DNA from: Fragilaria crotonensis
Lineage: Eukaryota > Bacillariophyta > Fragilariophyceae > Fragilariales > Fragilariaceae
Direction: 5' to 3'
Length of the DNA: 27,017 nucleotides
Assembly (NCBI GenBank): GCA_022925895.1
Contig: JAKSYS010000761.1
Span: 1 to 27,017, forward strand
Positions 1,959 to 21,436 of the stretch are shown here, one piece after another. The translations under genes and the position numbers were made by a program. The stretch's first letter is position 1, and every line of letters starts with the position of its first letter. The notes beneath the pieces are model-generated. The model made no database searches. It saw nothing but the letters and a program-made list of their open reading frames with translations, and had not been told where the DNA came from.

Positions 1959-1979
1959 GAGACCATTCGGGGATTAATT
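1959..1979 (+). repeat. Left terminal inverted repeat of the 5.8-kb element
   Basis: This 21-bp sequence beginning GAGACCATTCGGGG is identical to the reverse complement of 7757-7777. TA at 1957-1958 is the left copy of the target duplication. Confidence 0.9.
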
Positions 1980-2129
1980 CGGTTGTTCGATCCAGCCGGC
2001 TAAACGTTATCTGTCGGTTTCACTCTTGAATTTTTACTGAAGTCGATTCGATTCTTTGCTCCAGAGAAGATAACGGTCATGTGGCATCTTCAAAACCCGA
2101 TAACTTGACGATTTCGTCGAACACCGTGA

Positions 2130-2184
2130 AAAGCGTGCACTATGTTGCTCCATGCATGGTGGTGAATGACATAGTGCACGCTTT
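2130..2184. repeat. Perfect 16-bp inverted repeat (stem-loop) in transposon 5' region
   Basis: AAAGCGTGCACTATGT at 2130-2145 pairs perfectly with ACATAGTGCACGCTTT at 2169-2184 across a 23-nt spacer. The spacer itself contains the palindrome CCATGCATGG at 2150-2159. It lies about 170 bp upstream of the transposase start codon and about 170 bp inside the left TIR. A transposase- or repressor-binding site, or an mRNA leader hairpin, are possible roles. Neither can be chosen from sequence. Confidence 0.75.
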
Positions 2185-2357
2185 CTTCGCTACTCGCATT
2201 TTTGAAGACGTCGTTAACAGCCGTCGAAAAGAAGTTCCACGTGGAAGAATTCGTTTTTGTAGTGGGAAATCACGTAGGTTCTACTCAAGAATGAAAGAAT
2301 TTTTGGATCTTTGACGCAGATGCGAATGTCTGCAATCGCACAATCTACCGGAGTACC

Positions 2358-5300
2358 ATGAGCCGACAATCAAACGCAAGAATGCAGCCACATGAGCTCT
2401 ACAAGCGTTCGCGAAGTTGCGACGTTACATGCCTGTCATTTGGGGCGAACAGAAAAGAAGAATTTCCTGACTACTTCTTTTGTCACGGATGTGACCTTCT
2501 GGAAGATTCAGTGCTAAACAGCATGCTCTCAACACGACGTTCTTGTGCAGGTCGTAATCAGAAGAGGTACAGGTGTACAGGCGGTCATGTGAATTTGGCA
2601 CACCCGACGACCCTGAAGAAAGCATATCGGTCCAATAGTGTCCGATCTGAAAGGCCCACAAGTTCAGTCCAAAGTGGTTCCCACAACACCGGTGATAAAG
2701 CTATCGGAGCTGACGAAGCAACAAATATGATTCGGAGTGATGTTCACGAATGGAATGTGTTGTCACCCAGCAACACAAATGATGCTGGTCTCCTGACCCC
2801 AGCACCGGAAAGGATGGATTTATTTTCTTGTGACCCCCGAAGATTGTTCACCTCCTCTAGTACCGATGGCTTTTCCTTAGTATCTGCTTCCGGAATGGAG
2901 GAATTCAAAAGTACAGTTGCCAGTACTTGCCTCACCTGCATGACAGGCTCATTGATCTCAACAAAAGGAAGTAGCACAACCACTCAGCATGAACTTGAAT
3001 TTCAAATTTCATTTTTAACAGGACGCTGCCTGGAGCTTGATAAAAAAAATACTTCTCTCGAAAAAGAAGTTCTGGAGCTCAAAACACAGATTGCTCATTT
3101 GGCGGGGAACAAGAAAACAGCACTGCTGAACCGCAAAGGGGATGATGATGTGATCCCTGAGCTGTCTGATAAGAACAATAATGACGAAGCCACTGCCTCG
3201 GAAAAACTCAGAAGACAAAGGCTTCGCGTATCCGACGAGAATGCTAAACTGACACAGACATTCTCAATTCTTATTGGAGACTTTGTTTCAAGGGCCGATA
3301 TTGCAGATCGTAGGCGGTTTCCAGAGTGTCGTTTGGCAAAGATAATTATTGATAGTGTAACTGCCTTTGAATGGACACATTCCGAAGTCTTGCGGTTTGC
3401 AAGCCAACTGAACAGCAACTCTAGGATGCGTGATGCATCGAGAACTGATGATGAGTGTAACAGTGCAAGAGAACTCGCGGCAGAGCTGTTGGCAGTGCTT
3501 CGTAAGAGAAAGCAAGGCCGACATCGTGGAGACAAGAGCAAGGCGGCCCTGTTGATCAATTGCATGTGGGCTGATGACTTTCTTCACGGAGAAGCAAAAG
3601 CATGTATGATTGCTCATGTTCGTCAATACCTCCGACAACATGTGTTTTCCCCGTGGAAAATCCTTAAAGCTATGGACATTGCAGGGTTCAAACTTAGCTT
3701 GGCAGGGATTGAAGTTTTGCGACATGTTGAGAATGATTCGAAGTATGGTCGCGGGTCCCTTCCGAGCAAATCTACAATTCTTCGTTCCGCTCGAAAGCTG
3801 GAGGCGGCTGCTTCAGAAATATGTCCATTCACGATGATTGGCCGAACATTTTGCCCGGACTTGCAATATGACGAGATGGAAGACAACATTGTTGGGGAAG
3901 GTTTTGAGTTTGATGCCGTCAAGGTCACCGAGACACTCTTTCAAGCATTTGGCTTAATGGATGAAGCCAAGCGGCGTCCTGTGGAGTTGGGCCTTGCATC
4001 CGACGGAGCACAGCTGACCAATACAATATCACATGTAGCTGCTGGCCTTAAGTTTAATGACGTTGCAATGAGAGATCCCATAACAAAGCAGCCTATGCTC
4101 CTTCACAATCCCGACTCCCTCGTGCAGAGCCGTAACCTTTGTTTTCCGCTAAGAATTGTCATCGCAAAAGACAGCAAGAAGACACTCGAGGGGTTTCGGT
4201 GTCTCTACAAGAGCTTCGATGCTGGTGATGTGGCTGAGGCATTAAAGTGTCACCCGTTCAAAATGTCCTTTCCAGGCGACATGAAGTTGCAATGGGGTGC
4301 ACTGGACAAAGGTGGAGCTGCCAAGGTAAAAGAGAAATTTTGCTACATTTGCCCTTGTCGATCATCAACGATCCATGTTCCACAGGATAAAAATAAGTGT
4401 CTATTGTGTATGTCCAAAGTCAATTCACGACAAGGCGGAGATGGCGAATACGACATTGACGAGTGCTATCACTACCCTTTCTTTGCCGATCCTGGTGTCC
4501 GAGCGGCATTAAATGAAGAACTTGATGTTCTCACTTCCCTCCTTGACAAAGAAAATGTAACCATTCCCTGCGGCGACGACGCTGCGGACAGACCAGACAA
4601 ACAACGAATGTATGTAAGGCGTCCAGGTGAACTTTCGGTAGATGGAGATCTACTCGATATTGACTACCAACCAAGTACAACTCGCAATAAAGCAGCATGG
4701 GCTGCTCTAATAACAGCTGAGCTCTCTGAACGGGAAATGTCAATCAGCGGCATTCTTGAAGAACGCAGACAGCGCCTTCGTGACATTCTGTTGAAAGAAC
4801 AACGAGCCCGTGACCTATCTCGCATGCTAAAAGAGAGTGAACCGAAAGAACAAGCAATGTATCTTGTACTCCAGGCAGTTGTCTGCATCCTTCACTTAGA
4901 GAACCGAGTGGGTTTAAAGTCAATCGAGAGCATTCTTCGATCAGGTCTTTCCAATGCACAAAAGGGTATCCTTGATTGGACTACGGGAGGAGCCAAGCAT
5001 CGGCAGGATCAGTATATACAGCGGATTTCCAATATCATTGGAAGCAAGATTCTTGGAACAGTTGTCGCTCCTGCACAATGGCGATTTCCCCTTTCCGATG
5101 ATGGGATAAGTATGGGAACTTTGTCCATGGATAACAATCGGACGCGATCAATAATGAGCGAATTCGATTGAGCTGCTTGTTGAAGAGTCTTTTCCAGAAC
5201 AGGCATCAGACATCAATAAACTGCGACTGCTTCGCTGCTTTCCAAAATACAGGGCAGCACTGGCCCTCCTTCGAAAGAGCACTGACTTGAATGATGACGA

Positions 5301-5841
5301 GATAATGGCGTTTCAGTGTCATATCGATGGTTGGTTCAATGACTGGGTAAAAGTATACGGGAAAGAGGGTTGTACAAATTATACTCACATGTTGTCGTCG
5401 TCGCATGTTATGAAATACATGCAGGAATGGAAATGCCTGCATCGATTTTCTCAACAGGGGTGGGAAGCATTAAATGCACTCATCAAGTCTTACTTTTTTC
5501 GCCGGACAAACCGTGGAGGCTTATCGAGGAATGGCACACAGAAAAGTAAGCTGCTTGGAATAGCACGATGGTTACAAAGACGAATAATGTGGTATAGTGG
5601 GCGTGGAGGTGAGCTTTTTCTGGATGCTGACGTGCAGAATAACCGTAATGAAAACGTCGGTGACGAGAATGACTACAATCAGCAGGATGAGGAAAGTAAT
5701 AGTACAAGTGACGACGAGATCAGTTACAACAGCACAAATGACTTTTACTATGCATCTGAGGATGATGATGATGATTTCAGTATCGGTGTGACAAGTAGCG
5801 AGATTAATACTTTTACTAGTGACAACAATGAGCTCGTTTAG
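2358..5841 (+). pseudogene. DDE-type transposase with zinc-binding insertion, one frameshift
   Basis: The start ATG (context TACCATGAGC) opens a 937-codon frame ending at TGA 5169-5171. The protein continues in the +1 frame from about 5158 and ends at TAG 5839-5841, making roughly 1,150 residues. Visible features are a Cys/His-rich N terminus (C42, C45, C63, C73), a coiled coil at about residues 210-250, candidate catalytic Asp in ASDGAQL (D549, base 4002) and PGDMK (D641), then a zinc-ribbon-like insertion (C662, C665, C667, C681, C684). After the shift comes a QQGWEALN motif with the candidate Glu at 5464-5466, followed by FFRRTNRGG. This Asp, Asp, zinc insertion, Glu order fits large DDE transposases that I recall only as unnamed proteins in algae and cnidarians. 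The break may be a 1-base insertion near 5169. Alternatives are a 49-bp GT-AG intron (5110-5158), a sequencing error or recoding. Confidence 0.75.
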
Positions 5842-5842
5842 A

Positions 5843-7669
5843 TTACTGGAGCATCTTTTGAATTTGTAGATGGACATCTTCAGCATCGGTGTAGATCACA
5901 ATCTCAGATGAGTGCACCGACATAGTTCTCTTTGTTGCTTGATCGACAATCTTATGAACTCGCTTTGCATGAATTTCATTCGAGAACACTTTCTGTACGC
6001 GCATGACGTACATGTCGTCCACAAACTCCATTCCAGGAGCTATGTCGCTCATGCAGTCAAAAGTACTACTTGTAGAGCAATCTGAAGAAGGATTTTGTAA
6101 CGAACTTGATCTGCCTCTTCCATCAGCACATGTCGCAACTCCAACTGAAGCGAGAGCACCAATGGACATATTGGTGACTACCAGCTTGCGATACCGAAGG
6201 ACAATCTGCAGCACGCCTTCCGATGCATCGTACGCCAGATCAATACCATCATCAGTAGTACCGAAGCGTTTAAATGGACCATGATCAACACATTCCGTCG
6301 AGTTTCTGTTTTCATTTGTTGAATCATTCTCCTCTTGCGATGGGCAGGATATGACATTTAAGACGTCATTTAGGCTCAACAATGACTTTCCATCCCTATA
6401 CCTCGGCCGTTTTTTCCTTACGCCGAACCCTGACATAATGCCGAACAATCGTCAAAAGCCATCCATTTTCTCTTTTGTGTCAAACCGGATTATATCCAAG
6501 GACCCGGTTTGTGGACATGAATACAAAGTGAGTCCCCAAGTCAGGACGGATTTGGGTTGAGTGTAGCTTACTGCGGGAATACTCTGTATCCCTTCGGAAG
6601 CTAAGCTGCTTTTAATATAGAACCAACTGCAACTCGGCAATTGTATTTTGGTTGTTTTCACTGAGAAGTCACCTTGCGACTGCGCGACTCGGCAAAGACT
6701 GCGTTGCATATCTTGACGTATTTGTCTGATACTGTTAAATATCATCTGACAGTGATCCACCGACCACAATTTGCAAAAAGGCTTGAGACAACTTGGGAAC
6801 GGTGGACACGAGTCACTTGGAATACAAGATATTTGACCTTCGGTGTCTATCCGATACTTCAATAGATATGCATTGTACATTCCACGACAATCATCAAATG
6901 TGTGGGGCAACATAACATTGTCAGCTTCGGGGAAAACAAATGCCAGTCCAACAACTGCTGACGATGGAATCCAATCATATTCGCAAAGCTGAACAAGTCT
7001 CTGCCATGTTGATTTGCCATTCGAAGCTTGTGACAACGCACTTTGATCAAGGCAGACTTTGTTTGAGATTACGGATTGATCTCGGAACACGTTAACCTTC
7101 ACATACTGAACCGATACATCCGCTGGTTGTTGCAACAAGGAGGCTACGTCATCTGGAAATGCCGCCGAACTTGCGAAGTGCTCAAAATTATCGATTTCTT
7201 CGACTGAATTGACCACTTTGATGATTCGACCAACACAGTTCGACATTTTATTCAATTCTTCTCCTGGTTGACCTTCAAGTGTGCTGGTCCTCAATCCTTT
7301 CTCATTGTTGGCATCCCTTGAAGGCGGAGCTTGTGCTGACGATGGCTGCTGCATTTCAGGTCGGCTGTAGAGGATGAAGCTTCCTGGCGTTATTGAGATC
7401 TTCAAGCTTGGAACATAAAGCGTTGTCTTAAATGACGATGGGCTGAGTTCTTCCCATGATACTGCAGCAGCAGCTGGATGATGCATTCTTGTATTCAGGG
7501 GTGTTGCACCGGTGCCAGGAGTCAACTTGTGCTTTATGTGTGCAATGCCATGAATCAATGCGACTGTATCAGCTGTCGAAGCACCAGAATACACAGGTGC
7601 AAGAGCTCAGATTGCAAAATTCCGCGTATTAAAATACTTATCCAATTTTTTTAAATTTCTCAGCTTCAT
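5843..7669 (-). pseudogene. Unidentified companion gene of the 5.8-kb transposon, two in-frame TGA codons
   Basis: One minus-strand frame runs from ATG 7669-7667 to TAA 5845-5843 (about 608 codons). It is interrupted only by TGA at 7609-7607 and TGA at 6454-6452, with no TAA or TAG. The segment before the first TGA encodes about 20 basic residues (MKLRNLKKLDKYF...). No catalytic motif is recognisable. The middle part is mixed alpha/beta-like with scattered cysteines, and the tail is acidic. It is convergent with the transposase and its stop lies one base from the transposase stop, so the two mRNAs must overlap at their 3' ends. Both TGAs could derive from CGA by C-to-T change. Small introns are a weaker alternative (an in-frame 87-nt GTCCAC...TGTCAG segment would remove the second TGA). 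Function is unknown; an accessory transposition protein is inferred from position only. Confidence 0.6.
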
Positions 7670-7756
7670 CGATGTAGCATCAAATTACCAAAAAGGCGTT
7701 AACTTATGAATATGCAGGCGTGAAAATATGGCTCATAACCAAAAACTGATCACCTC

Positions 7757-7777
7757 AATTAATCCCCGAATGGTCTC
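7757..7777 (-). repeat. Right terminal inverted repeat of the 5.8-kb element
   Basis: This is the perfect reverse complement of 1959-1979, followed by the right TA copy at 7778-7779 and then by GTG, the displaced tip of the outer CACTA-type element. Confidence 0.9.
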
Positions 7778-7782
7778 TAGTG

Positions 7783-9887: not shown

Positions 9888-10864
9888 TGCCTCGTCATTT
9901 TGAAGGAACAAGTTGCTTCTTGATTTCACAAAACGGCAATTCTTCTAAACTCTTGTAGTAACGCGGAAATGAACCTCTCGGAGGATTTTCTTGCTACACG
10001 GATAAAGTGAAGCCATCGCCTGCAGTGGTTGCACGACAACCAGATGGATATGTTTCGAGTACGGTAGTCTCGCCTATCGGTAAATGTTTTATAGGTGTTG
10101 CTTCCGTCAAACTCATGATACCTTGTGGTACCGCATGTTATATGTTTTCGTGATACAACCACAAACACTGGAGTCTGGCAGAACTCAATGCAACTTCTCT
10201 ACTAGGCGATAAGATTGACAACGATGAAATAGATTACAAATACATTGATGTTTTCCTAGTGATTGGGTTTGGAAGAAGGATGCCTTTGTTCATCGACGTA
10301 ACCTTGAACTTGTCAATCTGTAGCAAAACGATTTGTCGTCGCGTTTGGACGCCTGGATGAAAGCGCGTCCGCGAGTTCTCCAGACTCGGAAGTAGTGGAT
10401 ACGCGATTGTTGGCTTGAACAAGCCGGCATACTAAAGAATCATATATGAGAATGAGTTGCGAATGGACATCACCTGGGTTCTATGCATACCTCGCCAAGG
10501 AGCATCCATGCGAATGGGATGCGTATGGACGTCCCCTGGGTTCTCGTCTACCTCGCCAGGGAACAATAGTGTTCGGCTTTTGGTACCAGGTAACAATAAA
10601 GTGGATGTACAGTACGACTTCGTCTCCATAACGACAATAACGGCATCAGATTTCTTCATCGTACTTGGCGTACACTCAATGTAGTACTAGTACTGGAGTT
10701 TCATAGACTGTTGACTCTTTGTACTCCCAGTCGCCGAGTGTGACATGTGACATGTCGTACTCAGACAAATGCGTATGCATACAGTTGATAAATGTTGCCG
10801 TCGCACATATGCGTATCTACGAGACCTTGATATTTACGAGAACACAGGATGTTACGATGCATAA
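9888..10864. other. Intergenic stretch without recognisable genes
   Basis: Only short shadow frames occur. The one structured item is the 62-bp duplication at 10450-10573. The remainder shows short GTAC/CTAG palindromes but no gene-like sequence. Confidence 0.6.
10450..10573 (+). repeat. Tandem duplication, 2 x 62 bp
   Basis: GAATGAGTTGCG at 10450 and GAATGGGATGCG at 10512 start two diverged copies sharing ATGGAC, CCTGGGTTCT and ACCTCGCCA(A/G)G at the same spacing. No open reading frame of significance depends on it. Confidence 0.8.
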
Positions 10865-10966
10865 GAGCATCCTCACCGCTGGAGCTAAATCTGAGATATG
10901 ACCCGATAGGACCATTTGCGTCGACAATTTTGTCCAAAATGCATGGCACCGCTTGGGCTCGATACC

Positions 10967-11206: not shown

Positions 11207-11527
11207 CAGAGACGGGAATTTCTGAAAACATCAAACCCATGGGTACCCACGTAAAGCTACGCTCACGGAAGTACCAGCCCAAACCCACCCAGAACCCATA
11301 CGATCTACCAAGACCAACCCAAACCCACCCAAACCCAGTAGCCAGTCCTGGAGTACATGGTTCTACTACTACCGGTAGCAAACATCTACTGTCATTTTTT
11401 GCTATGATTTGCCGGCCCACCCAGACCCACCCATGAAATCCTGAGCTCACCCAAAACCCACCCTTAACCCAATGGGTTTGGGTGGGCCGTGGGTTTGGGT
11501 GGGCTGGGTTTGAAATTCCCGTCTCTG
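11207..11527. mobile_element. hAT-type MITE, 8-bp target duplication
   Basis: Perfect 16-bp inverted repeats CAGAGACGGGAATTTC (11207-11222 and complement 11512-11527) are flanked by ATGATGAC at 11199-11206 and 11528-11535. The 8-bp duplication fits the hAT consensus nTnnnnAn, and the CAGAG tip fits hAT TIRs. The 321-bp element has no coding capacity. Its interior is filled with CCCAAACCCACCC-type runs that could serve as subterminal transposase-binding repeats, as subterminal motifs do in plant Ac. It is inserted in the Harbinger-type MITE and is therefore younger than it. Confidence 0.93.
11278..11508. repeat. G-tract/C-tract subterminal repeats of the hAT MITE (G4-prone)
   Basis: Regular CCC tracts occur at 11278-11297, 11318-11336 and 11416-11432. 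Seven GGG tracts occur at 11474-11508 on the plus strand. Loops are 1-4 nt, so each block fits the G3+N1-7 quadruplex rule, on the minus strand at the left and on the plus strand at the right. The long frames crossing this region are products of the repeats and are not genes. Confidence 0.85.
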
Positions 11528-12036
11528 ATGATGACACCATGGAAACAATGACGAGATCCGGCACAAGCAGATTTCTTCTGGTACCAGTAGTACAGGTACA
11601 GTACTCTACTAGGGTTTCTACTAGTCGAATAACACCCAACAAGAGGTGCTTTGCCGGTTTTTTCTCGCCTGTCCTCTTCCATGATTTTGTAGAATTTCTT
11701 GATGCCACTACCGGTACTGGTAGTACTACTTACTCCATGTAAAGGTAGTGCATACAACGCAAGTTCCACATTCCATTACCACCGCGTCATACAGAAAAAG
11801 CAGTCTAATTTACAGAGTGCGTGTCAGATTTTAATCCTGCTGCTCGAAAAAATTATGAAAGCGGTGCGAGAGAAAGATACCACAAATATGTCCAAAATAG
11901 GTTTCTAAAGGCGCGAGACCAATTTGTCCGATTCAGATTTAGCTCCAGCGGTGAGGATGCTCTAAGGAGCGTATGTATGTCATCCATTTCCTCCACAGTC
12001 CACAGCACAAATTTAGTCGTACATTATATAGAATTA

Positions 12037-12225
12037 GGCCGATGCTTACAGGCAAACTGAAAACAAAACAAAGCAAACGGGATTGATTGTTTTCCGTTTG
12101 TTTTGTCAAATACCACAGCTTACAGGGGTACAAAACAAATGAAATCGTGTGTCATGGTTTGTAAATTCTGGTTCGTTCAAGATCCTGAACAAACGGGGGA
12201 GCGCCGTTTGTTAAAGTAACCCGGC
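12037..12225 (+). repeat. Left subterminal region with repeated CAAAC/GTTTG motifs
   Basis: After the TIR come ACAAAACAAA, CAAACGGG, CCGTTTGTTTTG, ACAAAACAAA, GGTTTGTAAA, ACAAACGGGG and CCGTTTGTTA. Related motifs recur at the right end (16390-16490: CGTTTGTTTGG, ACAAACCGTCGG, GGTTTGTTTTGTAAA). Shared subterminal motifs of this kind commonly bind the transposition complex; binding here is inferred. Confidence 0.6.
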
Positions 12226-12363
12226 GTGCATTTTTACAAAACAGAAGCAAAACATGCTGTGAACGTCGAGATCGCCACTCGCCACACGAGTTTAACATGT
12301 ATGTATCATAAAACCACGACATTCTCAATACATCAGACAAGTCGATCCAATTGTAGCGTCGTC

Positions 12364-14187
12364 ATGGGTGTTGCTAGTTCGAAGGTCTTCGTTAATCGGA
12401 TGCTCAGAAATGGGTTGGACGAAACAAATGATCCTGTGTGTGCAGGTAGCCACTACAACAGGACGAGATTGGATACCGTCAACTGGGTTGAAGAATCATT
12501 TCATCATCAACAGGTGGATGATTATGAGGACGATACAACGACAAATCTTCTCTTGAGTTTGCTTGCGCATCATTCCAATCTACGTAAGAAGAAGCAATTG
12601 TTACAACGAAAAGTGGCTGCGCTGAGAAGACGCCGGGCACGTGTAACACTGCCCGAGAAAAAGAGACGTATAGCACGTCGAAGGTTCTTCGTTGATCCAA
12701 TCTCAGGCGTGCGTCGCCCTATGACACCAACACTAAGCAATTGGTGGGTGGTGTACATCCAAGACCCAAACCCAGAATGCCGTCACTGGTCGAAGTCGTT
12801 CCGACAAAGGTTTCGGTTGCCTTATGACGAATTCCTGAAACTTTTAAGTATGATGCAGGACGACAGCAGTAATGATGTTTATTTTCGACGTTGGAAGACG
12901 GCTGTATCCTCCTTACAACTTGGAGAGGATCAAGAAAGCAATCCATGTCCTTCCGTAGCTCCGCCAAGGAAGGTCTCTCCTATGGAACTGTTATTGTTAG
13001 GAAGCTTACGCTATCTTGGCAGAGGGTGGACGTTCGACGACCTCGAAGAATCTACGTACATTAGTCGAGATGATGTCCATCGATGTTTTTTCCACCAGTT
13101 CTGTGCATGGGGTGCAAAGGTGTTGTATCCTATGTACGTTCAATTGCCAAAGACTCTGCAGGACTTGAGAGCTTGCGAGAAAGAGTACAGTGATGCAGGG
13201 TTCCCTGGGTGTGTTGGCAGTACGGATGCTACGCACATACCCCTTGAAAAGGTTTCGTTTGGACTCAGGCAGGGGCACCTTGGATACAAAATGTCTTCTA
13301 CCTCCCGGACCTACAATTTGACTGTGAACCATCGTCGGCAGATACTTCACTCTACAACCGGTCACCCCGGAAGGTGGAATGACAAGACTTTGGTTCGTTT
13401 TGATTCGTTTATGGCAGAATTGCGAAACGGTGCATTGAACGAAACAATGTCATTTGAATTGAGAAACAATCCTATTCAAAGTGGTGCACAAGAACAGGAG
13501 GAACCGGTGGCGGCAGCAACAGAAACAACAAGAACCATTAAAGGTGCTTACGTGATTGTCGACAACGGGTATTTGAATTGGTCGTCGACCGTGCCCCCAA
13601 TTAAGCATTCGTGCAATCGTTCTGAGATTCGGTTTTCTCAATGGCTTGAGTCCTTGCGGAAGGACGTAGAGTGTACCTTCGGCATTCTGAAAGGACGATG
13701 GAGGGTGCTGAAAAGCGGGATTCGAGTGCATAACACCGTGGCTGCTGACAACATATGGCTTACCTGCTGTGCTTTACACAATTTACTATTAGACGTTGAT
13801 GGTCTGAGTGTTGGCTGGGAAAATGGTGTGCCTTCTCACTGGGAAGGGGAACGCGGACAGTTTGAAGATGATGAAATTCCGGAGGCAATTCGAAGATTGA
13901 TTTCTCCGGATGAGGTCAGAACATACGATCAAAGTAGCTGTGGGTACAATCCAGCAGCACGTACTGCCCCAGCTGCTGTCAGTGACGACAAGAACGATGA
14001 CGGACAGTGTTATATTCAAAGTCAAAGGATCATAACAGAAGGTGAAGAAGTTGCAGTGAACGAGTTGACCCTGTCTCAATTTCGGGCGATGCTCATAGAA
14101 CACTTCAATATTTGTTTCCACGAGCACAAAATCAAATGGCCAAAAAGACTTGCAACAAAGACGCCTCCCCGACATGTTCCAAATTGA
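12364..14187 (+). CDS. PIF/Harbinger DDE transposase, apparently intact
   Basis: The 607-residue protein starts at ATG 12364. An upstream ATG at 12301 is possible but precedes nothing conserved. The N terminus is basic (KKKQLLQRKVAALRRRRAR region). The DDE_4/IS5-like catalytic core shows Asp288 in GSTDATHIPL, Asp400 in VIVDNGY and Glu436 in RKDVECTFG, with 35 residues between the last two. The Glu is followed by GILKGRWRVLKSG, matching the family's LKGR signature. The enzyme would cut and join the element's ends at TTA targets, usually with a partner protein that brings it to DNA and the nucleus. No stop or frameshift is seen. The N terminus MGVASS fits an N-myristoylation pattern, probably by chance. 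It is convergent with the accessory gene, stop to stop 118 bp apart. Confidence 0.93.
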   Translation: MGVASSKVFVNRMLRNGLDETNDPVCAGSHYNRTRLDTVNWVEESFHHQQVDDYEDDTTTNLLLSLLAHHSNLRKKKQLLQRKVAALRRRRARVTLPEKKRRIARRRFFVDPISGVRRPMTPTLSNWWVVYIQDPNPECRHWSKSFRQRFRLPYDEFLKLLSMMQDDSSNDVYFRRWKTAVSSLQLGEDQESNPCPSVAPPRKVSPMELLLLGSLRYLGRGWTFDDLEESTYISRDDVHRCFFHQFCAWGAKVLYPMYVQLPKTLQDLRACEKEYSDAGFPGCVGSTDATHIPLEKVSFGLRQGHLGYKMSSTSRTYNLTVNHRRQILHSTTGHPGRWNDKTLVRFDSFMAELRNGALNETMSFELRNNPIQSGAQEQEEPVAAATETTRTIKGAYVIVDNGYLNWSSTVPPIKHSCNRSEIRFSQWLESLRKDVECTFGILKGRWRVLKSGIRVHNTVAADNIWLTCCALHNLLLDVDGLSVGWENGVPSHWEGERGQFEDDEIPEAIRRLISPDEVRTYDQSSCGYNPAARTAPAAVSDDKNDDGQCYIQSQRIITEGEEVAVNELTLSQFRAMLIEHFNICFHEHKIKWPKRLATKTPPRHVPN

Positions 14188-20582: not shown

Positions 20583-21436
20583 AGTAAATGTGGTCCTCCA
20601 ACATTTATGCTAACCGCTTGCCTGTGAACGATCGAGGTTTGTAACTCAATCAAAATGCGAAACGCTAGCAAGTCAACGTTATGCCTCGGGTCTTTGAGAC
20701 TCGCTTTCCACCACTGTAGCTGAAACAAGGGGTAGATTCGTTCGATGGATCCATCGTCATCTTGAAGTTGATTGTTACTAGACAGTACAAGTAGTGGACA
20801 ACTTACTGAGACTCGTCTGGGCTGGATCCGATTAGAATGCAAGGAAATGACGTCGAGCCGTAACAATCAGCATGCTCTCCCTATGTTACTGTCGTACTGG
20901 AGTACTGTAAAACCGTCGGTAGTACGTGAAAGGGTCAGTACTGTGACGTCATCCTTGACGTCATTTCCTTGCAAAATCGAAACCGCTAAATTCATTTCAT
21001 TCCCCGGGAAAAAGTGTCAGCTTGTCATCATTATTTCCTTAGTCTCGTAGAATGTTGGAACTAGTACTTTTTGGTCGTAAAATTCTACACGTTGACACAG
21101 TGAAATACATGTGTGATACAAAAACTTGAACCTCGACTATCAACCTATCAAATAGCCAAATTCTTATTGACGTAGGATTTCTACGTCAAAACGAACACGA
21201 ATCTATCTGCTCAACTAGTAGAGCACTCCCAGTAGAGGATAATCAGGTACTGTACTCCAAGTAGGACGTACACCAAGAAATGAGCCGGATCTCTTTCTCA
21301 ACAAAATTCATGACACATTTTATGTTCTGAGAACAAAACTGACGATTGCACATTAGAAGTGCATATTCGTTGATGATCCTGCTGAACCAAACAGGTCCCT
21401 GCCGTATCCCTTAAACCGTTGGATAGCATTAGCACC
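20583..21436. other. Intergenic stretch containing the CRE foldback repeat
   Basis: No gene is recognisable. The foldback repeat occupies 20828-20984. The rest, up to the start of the PCMT-domain gene, is AT-leaning with GTACTCC/AGTACTGT-type short palindromes and should include that gene's promoter. Confidence 0.5.
20828..20984. repeat. Foldback repeat, copy B, with CRE palindromes
   Basis: The left arm GATTAGAATGCAAGGAAATG (20830 on) is mirrored by CATTTCCTTGCAAAATC at 20962-20978. The right half, 20917-20984, is the near-identical inverted copy of 133-203. TGACGTCA occurs at 20944-20951 and 20956-20963 with the same 12-bp spacing as in copy A. The foldback shape and about 157-bp length suggest a small MITE-like element, but no clear target duplication is visible. 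Confidence 0.75.

Follow-up and report, generated by a model that had tools for sequence, protein, structure and literature searches.

The 27,017-nucleotide stretch of the Fragilaria crotonensis genome considered here (contig JAKSYS010000761.1, assembly GCA_022925895.1; hereafter the window, meaning the whole stretch at its full length) carries a two-gene DNA transposon between positions 204 and 7782, which measures 5,829 bp after removal of a nested insert and one TA copy. A transposase gene on the forward strand faces a convergent second gene on the reverse strand, and the family to which the element belongs duplicates one base pair of target as a rule, with exceptions. Taken together, the ends, motifs and predicted structure make it probable that this family is a divergent cut-and-paste branch within the CMCT group (CACTA/EnSpm, Mirage, Chapaev and Transib, together with the transposon ancestor of RAG1), distinguished by a 1-bp duplication and by a second protein that is under constraint and belongs to no known family.

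The transposase is read on the forward strand from 2358 to 5168 (stop at 5169-5171), as supported by the open reading frame and the family alignment, and continues in another frame from 5158 to 5841; eight relatives (L006, L007, L008, L010 and L012-L015) have a single open frame there. Counted directly on the window sequence, the codons of the first frame include an N-terminal Cys/His motif, a first Asp (4002-4004), a second Asp (4278-4280), a C(2)C pair (4341-4343 and 4350-4352) and an LH pair (4890-4895), and the second frame contains an H(5)H pair (5386-5388 and 5404-5406) and the catalytic Glu of QQGWEALN (5464-5466). The second gene occupies 5843-7606 on the reverse strand and is interrupted by an in-frame stop at 6452-6454; its product is about 500 residues long in relatives. 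This layout, a long transposase frame (2358-5168 and 5158-5841) opposed by a second gene running from 7606 to 5843, agrees with a preliminary description of the locus made from its letters alone. The window transposase is frameshifted near 5158-5171, where relatives stay in one frame, and the copy is dead, having a transposase frameshift, a gene-2 stop and a split left end.

Both ends of the element read CACTAGAGACCATTCGGGGATTAATT once the nested insert is excised, giving 26-bp perfect terminal inverted repeats. The outer five bases of the left repeat, CACTA, lie at 204-208 on the forward strand and mark the true left end at 204, the inner 21 bases lie at 1959-1979 on the same strand (located by inverted-repeat comparison), and the right repeat lies at 7757-7782 on the reverse strand, with CACTAGAGACCATTCGGGGATTAATT as its inward reading and its true end at 7782. 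The right end is the reverse complement of 204-208 joined to the sequence from 1959 onwards (26 bp, no mismatch), and family ends start with CAC. The left repeat is interrupted at its TA by an inserted element of 1,748 bp, which is why the outer five bases of the repeat lie apart, at 204-208. The inverted repeats of the preliminary description are indeed perfect, at 1957-1979 and 7757-7779 (23 bp), but the real repeat is 26 bp long and the element's limits are 204 and 7782 instead of 1959 and 7777; the repeat of other genomic copies begins three bases outside these 23 bp (CACTAGAGACCATTCGG).

The nested element lies at 209-1956 and is followed by the second copy of its TA target duplication at 1957-1958, the first being at 207-208, so that the junction reads CAC-TA[209-1956]TA-GAGACC. 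It has inverted repeats of its own (TGGCTGGGTGCA..; 45 of the first 60 bases identical) and is probably non-autonomous, its longest listed stop-to-stop frame being 121 residues. Its end motif recurs at 35 genomic sites (19 forward, 16 reverse; 0 in the control), four of them exact and 31 with one mismatch; among these 31 the mismatch falls within the three bases beyond the TA in 23, at inner positions in eight and within the TA in none, and the window's own right end of the nested element is one of the 23. Because the motif keeps its TA and varies outside it, the TA duplication originally assigned to the two-gene transposon arose at the insertion of the nested element, and the sequence taken for restored host is this insert's terminal repeat, whose right end adjoins 1957 on the left. 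The left end of the window element was split later by a different, TA-targeting element. A TA-duplicating transposon with ends at 1959 and 7777, whether akin to Tc1/mariner or forming a TA superfamily of its own, would explain the TA present at both of these borders, but is refuted by the origin of the left TA and by the CAC or CAA outside the TA, which is part of the conserved end in other copies; its probability is negligible. The contrast already drawn with typical Tc1/mariner elements holds, given that there is no TA duplication, that the duplicated base varies and that the transposase has 1,029-1,149 residues as opposed to the figure of about 350 in the preliminary description. The left neighbour was also considered as a second CACTA element abutting this one (ends CACTATGG); this candidate was dropped, the bases outside its TA being variable.

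Relatives are abundant in the 62.1-Mb assembly (881 contigs), where at least 56 stretches match the first frame of the window transposase and group into at least 31 loci; the scan scored 49 of 80 candidates, and copy counts are lower bounds. Two types are distinguished, A (including the window copy) and B, with roughly 30-40% identity in matched stretches and 29-31% between the transposase of L007 and those of four type-B copies. The transposase frame is uninterrupted in eight of the 11 copies first fetched (1,035-1,162 residues from stop to stop); the range of 1,029-1,149 residues is that of eight relatives measured from the first Met, among which L010 (1,102) is without the N-terminal part in frame. 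A 17-base motif of the type-A end occurs at 131 genomic sites with at most one mismatch (0 in the reversed control), and the exact type-B end CAATAGCGACCA at 88 sites versus 12 in its control. The transposase is under constraint, with ratios of nonsynonymous to synonymous substitution (dN/dS) of 0.08 and 0.18 in the computable pairs; dS was computable in three of 15 gene pairs across the transposase and gene 2, the remainder being saturated, and for both genes nonsynonymous divergence is 0.15-0.42 against 0.51-0.84 of synonymous sites differing. Of the features expected earlier to recur across copies, the shared ends and the two genes do so (at least 31 loci, 25 with gene 2), but the TA does not. 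Several type-B elements (L061/L066, L062/L065 and L071/L072/L073) lie in common flanks, as would be expected if the assembly contains segmental duplications or allelic contigs.

Target duplication was assessed in elements selected by family ends, with one mismatch allowed for most of type A. Among 55 paired elements examined, six sharing flanks with another were dropped, leaving 49 that were non-redundant; L005 and L009 (no clean end pair), L015 (no family inverted repeat) and several end pairs not fetched at both ends were left out of this count. CAC..GTG (type A) or CAA..TTG (type B) is present at both ends in 47/49, and the bases directly outside the two ends are identical in 38/49 (19/28 of type A and 19/21 of type B). 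Random re-pairing of the flanks (20,000 shuffles) gave a mean of 13.7 matches and a maximum of 26, and the highest count at 15 other pairs of flanking positions was 20/49. Any of the four bases can be duplicated (17 A, 9 C, 7 G, 5 T). Blunt insertion, in which no base is duplicated and matches arise by chance, has reportedly been described for Spy, going by the title of that report, and would suit the 11 unmatched elements and the two empty sites at which L022 shows no added base; 38 matches where about 14 are expected speak against it, and as a general rule it is refuted by the nine loci described next, which makes it highly improbable.

Paralogous empty sites were sought with joined flanks. 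Candidates were aligned for 18 loci, and at nine of them (L006, L013, L014, L017, L057, L058, L076, L078 and L079) the filled site is longer by exactly 1 bp; this difference was found at two of three sites for L006 and for L057, at three sites for L014 and at four for L076. One of the three L006 sites (L049) is not clean, and small additional differences lie near the junction at L006, L078 and L079. The family could instead be an ordinary CACTA/EnSpm lineage whose duplication is really 2-3 bp and only looks short, which would accommodate the CACTA ends, the C(2)C, LH and His-pair motifs shared with CACTA/Chapaev and the +2 bp at the L034 empty site; direct duplications of 2 bp and of 3 bp are found in 1/49 elements each, though, and with nine loci at exactly +1 this explanation is rather improbable. 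Other junction differences made L008, L028, L032, L067 and L074 unreadable, and the L018 candidate turned out not to be an empty site. A further sequence, L090 (C215:58260-58450), has the flanks of L067 and retains only about 11 bases of the right repeat beside the right flank, and is possibly an excision footprint or an internal deletion.

The transposase motifs were read from 20 aligned family sequences, some of which are near-identical, with the numbering of L007. D576 and D668 are each invariant in the 19 rows that cover them, as is C689-x2-C692, which begins 21 residues after D668; L867-H868, between the C(2)C and the His pair, is invariant in 16/16 covering rows, and both H1029-x5-H1035 and E1055 (of QQGWEA) in 15/15. 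The candidate residues named in the preliminary description (D549, D641 and the Glu of QQGWEALN) are present and match invariant family positions (19/19, 19/19 and 15/15 covering rows). That description was also right in seeing a two-gene DNA transposon with a DDE-type transposase and a Cys/His-containing insertion. The order D, D, C(2)C, LH, H(5)H, E is that of RAG1. The corresponding mouse residues are given as D600, D708, C727, C730, H937, H942 and E962 (PMC4914335), and compared with these the family has an identical Cys-x2-Cys, 21 rather than 19 residues from the second Asp to the first Cys, and the same 20 residues from the last His to the Glu (PMC4914335).

Searches by sequence returned little. 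None of eight transposase members has a Pfam match above the curated cut-off, the best weak match being to a coiled coil (E 0.006), and the weak sequence-search matches look like coiled coils or chance; the earlier suggestion of a poorly classified branch is upheld to this extent. No PF02992 match was found by Pfam in these eight proteins, and searches of the family's own genome with PF02992 and PF18758 gave 0 matches with controls equally silent, and so are uninformative. Relatives in viral or prokaryote contigs were likewise absent from peptide-pattern scans, which reach limited distances. In a core model built from 17 family sequences, several blocks of the helical insertion exceed 80 in predicted local distance difference test (pLDDT) score, and the first six Foldseek matches in the PDB are all RAG1 (probability 0.98). 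In a second structure comparison, rows 1-24 are RAG1 (Z 8.1-10.1; typically model residues 418-601 on RAG1 790-951), and HzTransib is found at Z 6.5 and 6.2. The aligned range extends past the His pair of RAG1, since the His pair of the model lies at 585 and 591. A viral fold library yielded no match at E <= 0.001. Because helical bundles can reach such Z scores, the structural match to RAG1 carries weight only in conjunction with the motifs and ends, and motifs and structure in combination suggest a relation to RAG1, Transib and CACTA that the preliminary description had not seen. Convergence would offer another account, in which an unrelated DDE superfamily acquired a zinc insertion and CA..TG ends resembling those of RAG1 and CMCT; the lack of meaningful sequence similarity to a known family and the weakness of the catalytic core model fit it, but the combination of motif order, a spacing that partly agrees with RAG1, CAC ends and a best structural match to RAG1 makes it unlikely.

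Gene 2 lies within 5 kb of 25/31 transposase loci, and at these 25 its main match is on the strand opposite the transposase, one short extra match (C26:27912-28058) being on the same strand. At 9/34 gene-2 loci there is no transposase match nearby. These include L074 (C38:79900-83036), a short type-B element of 2,897 bp with both ends, a 1-bp duplication and gene 2; at C76:102397-105297, gene 2 is found between type-B ends 2.9 kb apart, again with no transposase match nearby. The gene seems to be retained alone in some mobile copies. It is also constrained (dN/dS 0.13 for the one computable pair), with 27-28% identity between types A and B. Among Pfam matches for the seven rows scanned there is no kelch or PHD domain, and only two matches were obtained, to NinF (E 0.035) and GMPPB_C (E 0.25). 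Because gene 2 is retained and constrained, and because the two-gene layout is as in RAG-like (RAGL) elements, its product most likely acts as a partner of the transposase or regulates it. Plant CACTA elements carry two genes as well.

The family shares features with several described systems and differs from each in others. CMCT elements are characterized by a C(2)C, an H(3-4)H and CA..TG ends, with duplications of 2-5 bp observed in known lineages (PMC12730594); the C(2)C is shared by the family and so is the His pair, although as H(5)H (PMC12730594). Chapaev hallmarks are given as C(2)C, LH, H(4)H and CAC..GTG ends with 3-4 bp duplications (PMC4079192), of which the ends, C(2)C and LH are common to the family, whereas the duplication is 1 bp and the His pair H(5)H here (PMC4079192). 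ProtoRAG has convergent RAG1L and RAG2L genes, CAC ends and 5-bp duplications (PMC7204232, PMC9435367), and its convergent two-gene layout is found in the family as well (PMC7204232, PMC9435367); CAC as first bases is common to the family and to RAG1, Transib and RAGL elements. RAG1, Transib and RAGL nevertheless differ from it in their reported 5-bp duplication and H(4)H, and no sequence similarity to them was detected; the second gene of ProtoRAG is described as RAG2-like, with a kelch propeller, and no kelch or PHD match was obtained with Pfam for the seven rows of the family's gene 2. In AanRAGL of the stramenopile alga Aureococcus, both genes run in one direction and duplications are 5 bp (PMC9435367), as opposed to the convergent genes found here (PMC9435367). 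Given such reports from a stramenopile, it is not novel in itself for a single-celled eukaryote to carry a RAG1-like transposase (PMC9435367). The fungal EnSpm-like ESTA elements are described as having a RAG1-like transposase outside the classical superfamilies, a 2-bp TA duplication and a TET/JBP gene (PMC12730594). They resemble the family in combining a short duplication with a RAG1-like transposase (PMC12730594), but duplicate TA rather than any single base and carry TET/JBP in place of a second gene that Pfam leaves unassigned (PMC12730594).

Several observations count against placement near RAG1 and CMCT with a 1-bp duplication. The duplication itself falls outside the 2-5 bp given for CMCT, and it is not uniform: 11/49 elements have no matching base, the window copy included, and empty sites give 0 at L022 (two sites), +2 at L034, and -1 at L035 and at one of the three L057 sites (L099). 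At the window copy no duplication is visible, because the bases outside its ends, G and T, differ. Spacing departs from RAG1 at 92 residues between the two Asp residues versus 108, and at 337 versus 207 from the second Cys to the first His (PMC4914335), and H(5)H is wider than the H(3-4)H described for CMCT. No named family emerged from Pfam, PHROGs or PDB sequence searches. The core model has a mean pLDDT of only 52.9, the full-length model (36.1) is too poor for use, and the best Foldseek E-value is only 0.09; in the second comparison an unrelated chemoreceptor (Z 7.8) comes directly after the RAG1 rows and above Transib, and the aligned part is helical, for which the tool warns that Z below about 13 can reflect a common arrangement. 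The RNase H core called for in the preliminary description lies mostly below 50 pLDDT and is weakly modelled, and it is the helical insertion that matches RAG1 best. In ends and motifs the element resembles a CMCT transposon, but formal membership of the group is only tentative because the 2-5 bp duplication is not found.

Transposition probably proceeds as follows. The transposase would bind and pair the two inverted repeats, with the C(2)C and H(5)H pairs sharing one zinc, as in RAG1. The D, D and E residues would cleave at both ends and attach these to the two target strands with a stagger of one nucleotide, and filling of the one-nucleotide gaps by the host would yield the 1-bp duplication; cases of 0, +2 and -1 may represent slippage or later repair. 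Target-duplication length, which mirrors how the strand-transfer complex is arranged in space, is among the features by which superfamilies are defined. A broader proposal, to which slightly less than an even chance is given, is that these elements form a new superfamily-level branch of RAG1-fold transposons that join strands one nucleotide apart and encode a convergent partner unrelated to RAG2, such that the layout of RAG1 plus partner arose more than once. One-nucleotide spacing would be, to our knowledge, the shortest for a DDE transposase. Exact-phrase literature searches, judged by titles and abstracts, found no transposon with a 1-bp duplication, and records elsewhere are possible.

Other repeats and genes share the window with the transposon. 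A separate transposase gene at 12220-14187, presumably of Harbinger type, has a 655-residue open frame matching DDE_Tnp_4 (PF13359, E 5e-19) and Plant_tran. At 147-203 and 20838-20973 lie two members of a family of short repeats that have the ends TGCAAGGAAATGACGTC and dozens of genomic matches; the left end of the transposon adjoins one such TGCAAGGAAATGACGTC repeat copy, and L028 is inserted in another. Repeats resembling CCCAAACCCA are present at 11278-11512, flanked by the 31-bp perfect arms of an inverted repeat (10864-10894 and 11933-11963).

With its numerous copies, its empty sites and its short non-autonomous derivatives, the family provides a RAG1-like system of two genes in which the reaction is directly testable. 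If the interpretation is true, an enzyme of RAG1/CACTA type that duplicates 1 bp would extend the recorded range of 2-5 bp (PMC12730594), and duplication length would be an unsafe marker of the CMCT group. Screens that require a longer duplication, such as the 3-8 bp specified in PMC7204232, would overlook a family of this kind.

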